This document shows, one piece after another, positions 1,048 through 2,592 of a DNA stretch of 38,883 nucleotides; the stretch's first letter is position 1; each line of letters starts with the position of its first letter. Location of the stretch: NCBI GenBank assembly GCA_023267195.1, contig JAHFNT010000002.1, positions 151,830 to 190,712 of the forward strand, given 5' to 3'. The notes beneath the pieces are model-generated. The model did no database searches. It worked only from the letters and a program-made list of their open reading frames with translations, and was not told the origin of the DNA. The stretch is from Candidatus Nomurabacteria bacterium (GTDB lineage Bacteria > Patescibacteriota > Minisyncoccia > Phycocordibacterales > UBA9973). The position numbers and the translations under genes are program-made.

Positions 1048-2592
<1,545 letters not shown>

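Follow-up and report, generated by a model that had tools for sequence, protein, structure and literature searches.

Whether the base changes seen in both strands of the helix 18 (530-loop) pseudoknot of a Nomurabacteria-like 16S rRNA are a natural compensatory variant, and what they say about the constraint on this structure, is the question raised by the DNA studied here, a stretch of 38,883 nucleotides that we call the window. The pseudoknot is required for placement of G530, fixing the 530 loop in a way that lets this base monitor the A-site helix (PMC7356742), and in Escherichia coli, as related in the cited part of PMC3900107, single pseudoknot changes impair growth and compensatory second-site changes rescue it (Powers and Noller 1991). 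The 16S rRNA gene of the window encodes a complete bacterial SSU rRNA that houses this pseudoknot. It is single-copy, with no second copy in the 648 kb, 7-contig genome (the window lies on contig 5), which is 91% complete and belongs to a small, probably host-dependent bacterium. A first-pass annotation, made from the letters of the window, had read UCC at E. coli positions 505–507 and GGA at 524–526, and both readings are exact in the minus-strand sequence and in the Rfam alignment. The features discussed below, in window coordinates, are:

1048..2595, minus strand: 16S rRNA gene, full length (Rfam RF00177, SSU_rRNA_bacteria, 1359.8 bits, model 1-1533)
2052..2097, minus strand: helix 18 (E. 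coli 500–545), from direct reading and cmscan alignment
2090..2092, minus strand: pseudoknot 5' strand, E. coli 505–507, UCC (GGC in E. coli), from reading, cmscan alignment and covariation
2071..2073, minus strand: pseudoknot 3' strand, E. coli 524–526, GGA (GCC in E. coli), from reading, cmscan alignment and covariation
2064..2082, minus strand: 515F primer site, E. coli 515–533, from an in silico primer test

Read directly from the minus strand, the helix 18 region is GAGGC TCC TAATCTC GTGCCAGCAGGA GCGGTAATAC GAGA GCCTC, or as RNA GAGGC-UCC-UAA-UCUCG...CAGCAG-GA-GCGGUAAUA-CGAGA-GCCUC. Both the lower helix (GAGGC 500–504 with GCCUC 541–545) and the upper helix (UCUCG 511–515 with CGAGA 536–540) are fully paired, and the pseudoknot pairs U505-A526, C506-G525 and C507-G524 are all standard; the earlier proposal that the three pairs are kept as U-A, C-G and C-G thus holds in the alignment. 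The structure agrees with the known bacterial helix 18 pseudoknot (505–507/524–526) in its position, its three pairs and its flanking helices, and differs from that of E. coli in using U-A and C-G where E. coli has G-C and G-C: two of the three pairs are altered (505-526 from G-C to U-A, 506-525 from G-C to C-G) and 507-524 remains C-G. The variation is compensatory, as Powers and Noller 1991 saw on mutating E. coli, according to the cited part of PMC3900107. The conserved loop bases G517, C518-C519 and G529-G530-U531-A532-A533 (GUGCC...GCGGUAA) are retained in the window, to which this statement applies, the collection patterns having fixed those bases in the relatives. The decoding centre in the 16S rRNA of the window has other changes as well: U replaces A at E. 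coli position 1396, as it does in 129 of the 146 sequences that can be read there, and A1409-U1491 and G1410-C1490 replace C-G and A-U, with several compensated states found among relatives.

The first-pass annotation had further described the region as close to invariant, which fails for the phylum, since a spread sample of 153 genomes with a readable state contains ten different 525–526 dinucleotides (CA 73, CC 50, GA 11, GC 4, TA 4, GT 3, TC 3, CT 3, TT 1 and CG 1). Among the matches listed from a scan of the genome collection, over 100 other genomes of Patescibacteria have UCC/GGA; most are Paceibacteria, with Kaiserbacteria, Nomurabacteria, Adlerbacteria, Zambryskibacteria and other Parcubacteria among those named; their pseudoknot strands are identical to those of the window and their surrounding helices vary. 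The idea that UCC/GGA is special to this lineage is ruled out by these species genomes. Within the order of the window, again among the matches listed, about one third have UCC/GGA and the remainder mostly UGC/GCA, other states being UAC/GUA, ACC/GGU, GCC/GGC, CUC/GAG, CGC/GCG and UUC/GAA. At closer range, the congeners G132, G357 and G656 and the family members G163 and G365 share UCC/GGA, and the congener G634 has a different compensated state, TTC/GAA. The nearest 16S relatives on our tree, L067 (Paceibacterota MAG_BO118), L042 and L029 (both Nomurabacteria), L023 and L212, all have UCC/GGA. UCC/GGA is an ordinary, recurrent, lineage-wide state of a known covarying helix; a literature search found no paper describing the swap in Patescibacteria. 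The scan also returned UCC/GGA 16S genes in records labelled Methylobacter and Bacteroidetes (L051, L071), probably misbinned Paceibacteria contigs, and one genome bin (G485) with two 16S copies, one UCC/GGA and one UGC/GCA (L155, L156), which is likely a mixed bin.

Covariation was assessed by selecting on one strand of the pseudoknot and reading the other. The 3' strand alone (GTGYCAGCMGGAGCGGTAAKAC), with the 5' strand outside the pattern, was scanned over 84,980 species genomes and gave at least 117 loci; among the matches listed, all of the 117 GGA-selected records, the window's own included, have UCC except L106 (GCC/GGA), and a tally over all records, again with the window, has 117 with UCC/GGA and L106 as the one GGA record with another 5' strand. 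The search patterns needed the flanking motif GTGYCAGCMG..GCGGTAA, so that 16S genes altered in that motif escaped, and roughly half of the genomes were without a pattern match, partly because MAGs often miss the 16S gene. A broader set from the phylum comprised 242 distinct 16S sequences. In this set the 506-525 pair is Watson-Crick every time (C-G 152, G-C 78, A-U 9, U-A 3), with not one mismatch or G-U wobble, and 507-524 is C-G in all 242. The outer pair, 505-526, is formed in 233 (U-A 208, G-C 15, A-U 6, C-G 4) and mismatched in nine (G-A 6, U-C 3). Mutual information at 506-525 is 1.2 bits in register and at most 0.1 with the partner slid by 1–3 bases. Changes were then counted by parsimony on a 16S tree that FastTree built from 218 sequences with the six pseudoknot columns left out: position 506 changes 28 times and position 525 28 times, with 28 of 28 on shared branches, and 505 changes 14 times and 526 13 times, with 10 on shared branches, the direction and exact number of these changes being uncertain because this is a single-gene tree with many weak nodes, a midpoint root and a sample enriched for GGA. 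UCC/GGA is a true compensatory change, and the rewiring proposed in the first-pass annotation is borne out by the covariation among these sequences. The pattern fits a constraint that concerns pairing only at 506-525 and is less tight at 505-526, and 507-524 does not vary in the sequences sampled. We conclude that the helix 18 pseudoknot of the window is almost certainly a natural, compensatory variant, belonging to the 16S rRNA of a Nomurabacteria-like member of the Paceibacteria within the Patescibacteria.

Against this conclusion, it might be held that the altered bases are an assembly or sequencing artefact and that the true consensus is GCAGCCGCGG, the window coming after all from a draft genome of 7 contigs. 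An error would not produce a partner strand altered to match, however, and the sharing of UCC/GGA by same-genus and same-family genomes and by the nearest 16S relatives makes a sequencing error very unlikely. Genomes obtained independently that have this state (in the genus, in the family and in the more than 100 others among the matches listed) or another compensated one, as in the TTC/GAA congener, rule the artefact out, and we give it virtually no weight. A different reading accepts the change and takes it as an adaptive alteration of decoding, with altered fidelity or natural streptomycin tolerance, in place of neutral paired drift. In E. coli and M. tuberculosis streptomycin is linked to the 530 loop, and low-level resistance follows when m7G527 is lost (both as cited in the parts of PMC4508563 and PMC7550191 used here), but the many coexisting compensated states and the frequent reversals on the 16S tree resemble neutral drift under a pairing constraint, and we consider adaptation improbable.

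The same nucleotide, G527, enters the argument in another way. Nelson and Stegen 2015 noticed that Parcubacteria are without gidB, the gene of RsmG, which makes m7G527, and asked if gidB might have become dispensable through compensatory 530-loop changes, an idea they could not test as they lacked linked 16S genes (PMC4508563). The rewiring could accordingly be tied to RsmG loss, either with the loop left freer once the methyl on G527 is gone or with the change making the enzyme unnecessary. RsmG was not found in the present, 91% complete genome, where the sole match (18 bits) is a generic 173-aa methyltransferase, and it exceeds the cut-off in just 3 of 98 genomes of the order and 29 of 379 of the phylum. 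Of the 153 phylum genomes, 57 have C526 and 18 of these contain RsmG, against 0 of the 96 others (Fisher p = 2.7e-9, with no correction for kinship), and none of the 25 RsmG-positive genomes with known state has G525. Exceptions run both ways. Because 39 of the 153 genomes keep C526 and have no RsmG, loss of the enzyme needs no rewiring; and because six RsmG-positive genomes have A526 (G388, G394 and G380 with UGC/GCA; G001, G105 and G063 with GGC/GCA), a changed 526 needs no loss of the enzyme. These counter-examples rule out that RsmG loss strictly causes the rewiring or strictly follows from it, and shared descent alone may explain the association, which is suggestive, confounded by kinship and not strict. 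We therefore regard a tie between the two as unlikely, if clearly less so than adaptation. A narrower version, to which we also assign a low probability, is that RsmG loss relaxed the constraint on sequence and not that on pairing, with 506-525 flipping repeatedly between C-G and G-C and no mismatch or wobble intermediate surviving in the 242 sequences.

The pseudoknot change has a practical side. In the in silico primer test, 515F-Y has exactly two mismatches to the window, the number given in the first-pass annotation, at primer positions 11 and 12 (E. coli 525 and 526), and its seven terminal 3' bases match; 515F_Mod has 0 mismatches to the site, and 341F, 785R and 806R match the 16S gene of the window perfectly. 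The accompanying prediction that the lineage would be under-amplified stands as an expectation with 515F, but it is already published and is limited to 515F-type primers. According to the cited part of PMC10943839, only 19.6% of the Patescibacteria in SILVA, and 6.3% of the Parcubacteria, match the standard V4 pair perfectly, and 515F_Mod (GTGYCAGMAGBNKCGGTVA), designed for the poor coverage of Patescibacteria, has degeneracy added at positions 8, 11, 12, 13 and 18, an approach that V4-EXT carries further (PMC13271367, in the part cited). The mismatch positions of the window, 11 and 12, fall in this known 515F/806R blind spot and are degenerate (B and N) in 515F_Mod (V4-CPR). As far as the cited parts of PMC10943839 and PMC13271367 go, they address primer coverage and not pseudoknot pairing. 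Under-detection of this group with 515F is expected, and V3-V4 primers are without the problem at this site; the mismatch confirms why 515F surveys overlook the group, a matter already known and mended in newer primers.

Several further observations concern the 16S gene and its surroundings. At the 3' end (window 1048..1085, minus strand) there is no anti-Shine-Dalgarno CCTCC after helix 45, the sequence being GGAATAATTCAATTTGAA. The 3' end can be read in 149 sequences of the tree (L002-L269), and 118 of them lack the motif; the 31 that keep it are a clade of 29 and two isolated tips, so the absence maps to one large group that includes the window. Shine-Dalgarno-like motifs stand upstream of 3 of the 25 ORFs in the window, near the 9% background, and our literature search found no paper describing the absence of the anti-Shine-Dalgarno in Paceibacteria. 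The GTPase Era has no match over the cut-off in the genome (best 26.7 versus 116 bits), which agrees with the loss of its RNA target GAUCACCUCC at the 16S 3' end, and bS21 gives a sub-threshold match only (20.2 versus 28.95 bits). The 16S gene is apparently unlinked from 23S within the window, where a terminator-like hairpin and a protein ORF come after it (820..960 region) and the Rfam scan has no LSU rRNA match anywhere. The A/T-rich flanks of the gene are complementary (TTGCTGTTTTTTGTTTTGTTTCGTTCT and GAACGAAACAAAACAAAGTACAGCAA; 820..960 and 2600..2670) and resemble a processing stem. A weak cobalamin riboswitch match lies at 20858..21005 (34.4 bits against a cut-off of 31.5) in what is a very small genome.

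Taking the compensatory variant as the preferred explanation, the pairs 505-526, 506-525 and 507-524 would fix the 530 loop in a position from which G530 inspects the codon-anticodon helix in the A site. Selection would then act on the formation of the pairs and not on the identity of their bases, and in this phylum paired substitutions would carry two of the three freely from one Watson-Crick type to another, with UCC/GGA among the commonest outcomes; we infer that the variant ribosome decodes normally. The absence of RsmG here and in nearly all of the order is a more interesting by-product than the swap itself. An old published question, that of pseudoknot state against RsmG loss, becomes testable, on evidence that is confounded by kinship, and a relaxation of the sequence constraint after loss of the enzyme would, if true, answer what Nelson and Stegen 2015 asked. 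The pseudoknot itself offers a clear natural case, with numbers of textbook grade, of a helix in a functional centre whose pairing has been kept and whose bases have changed many times.
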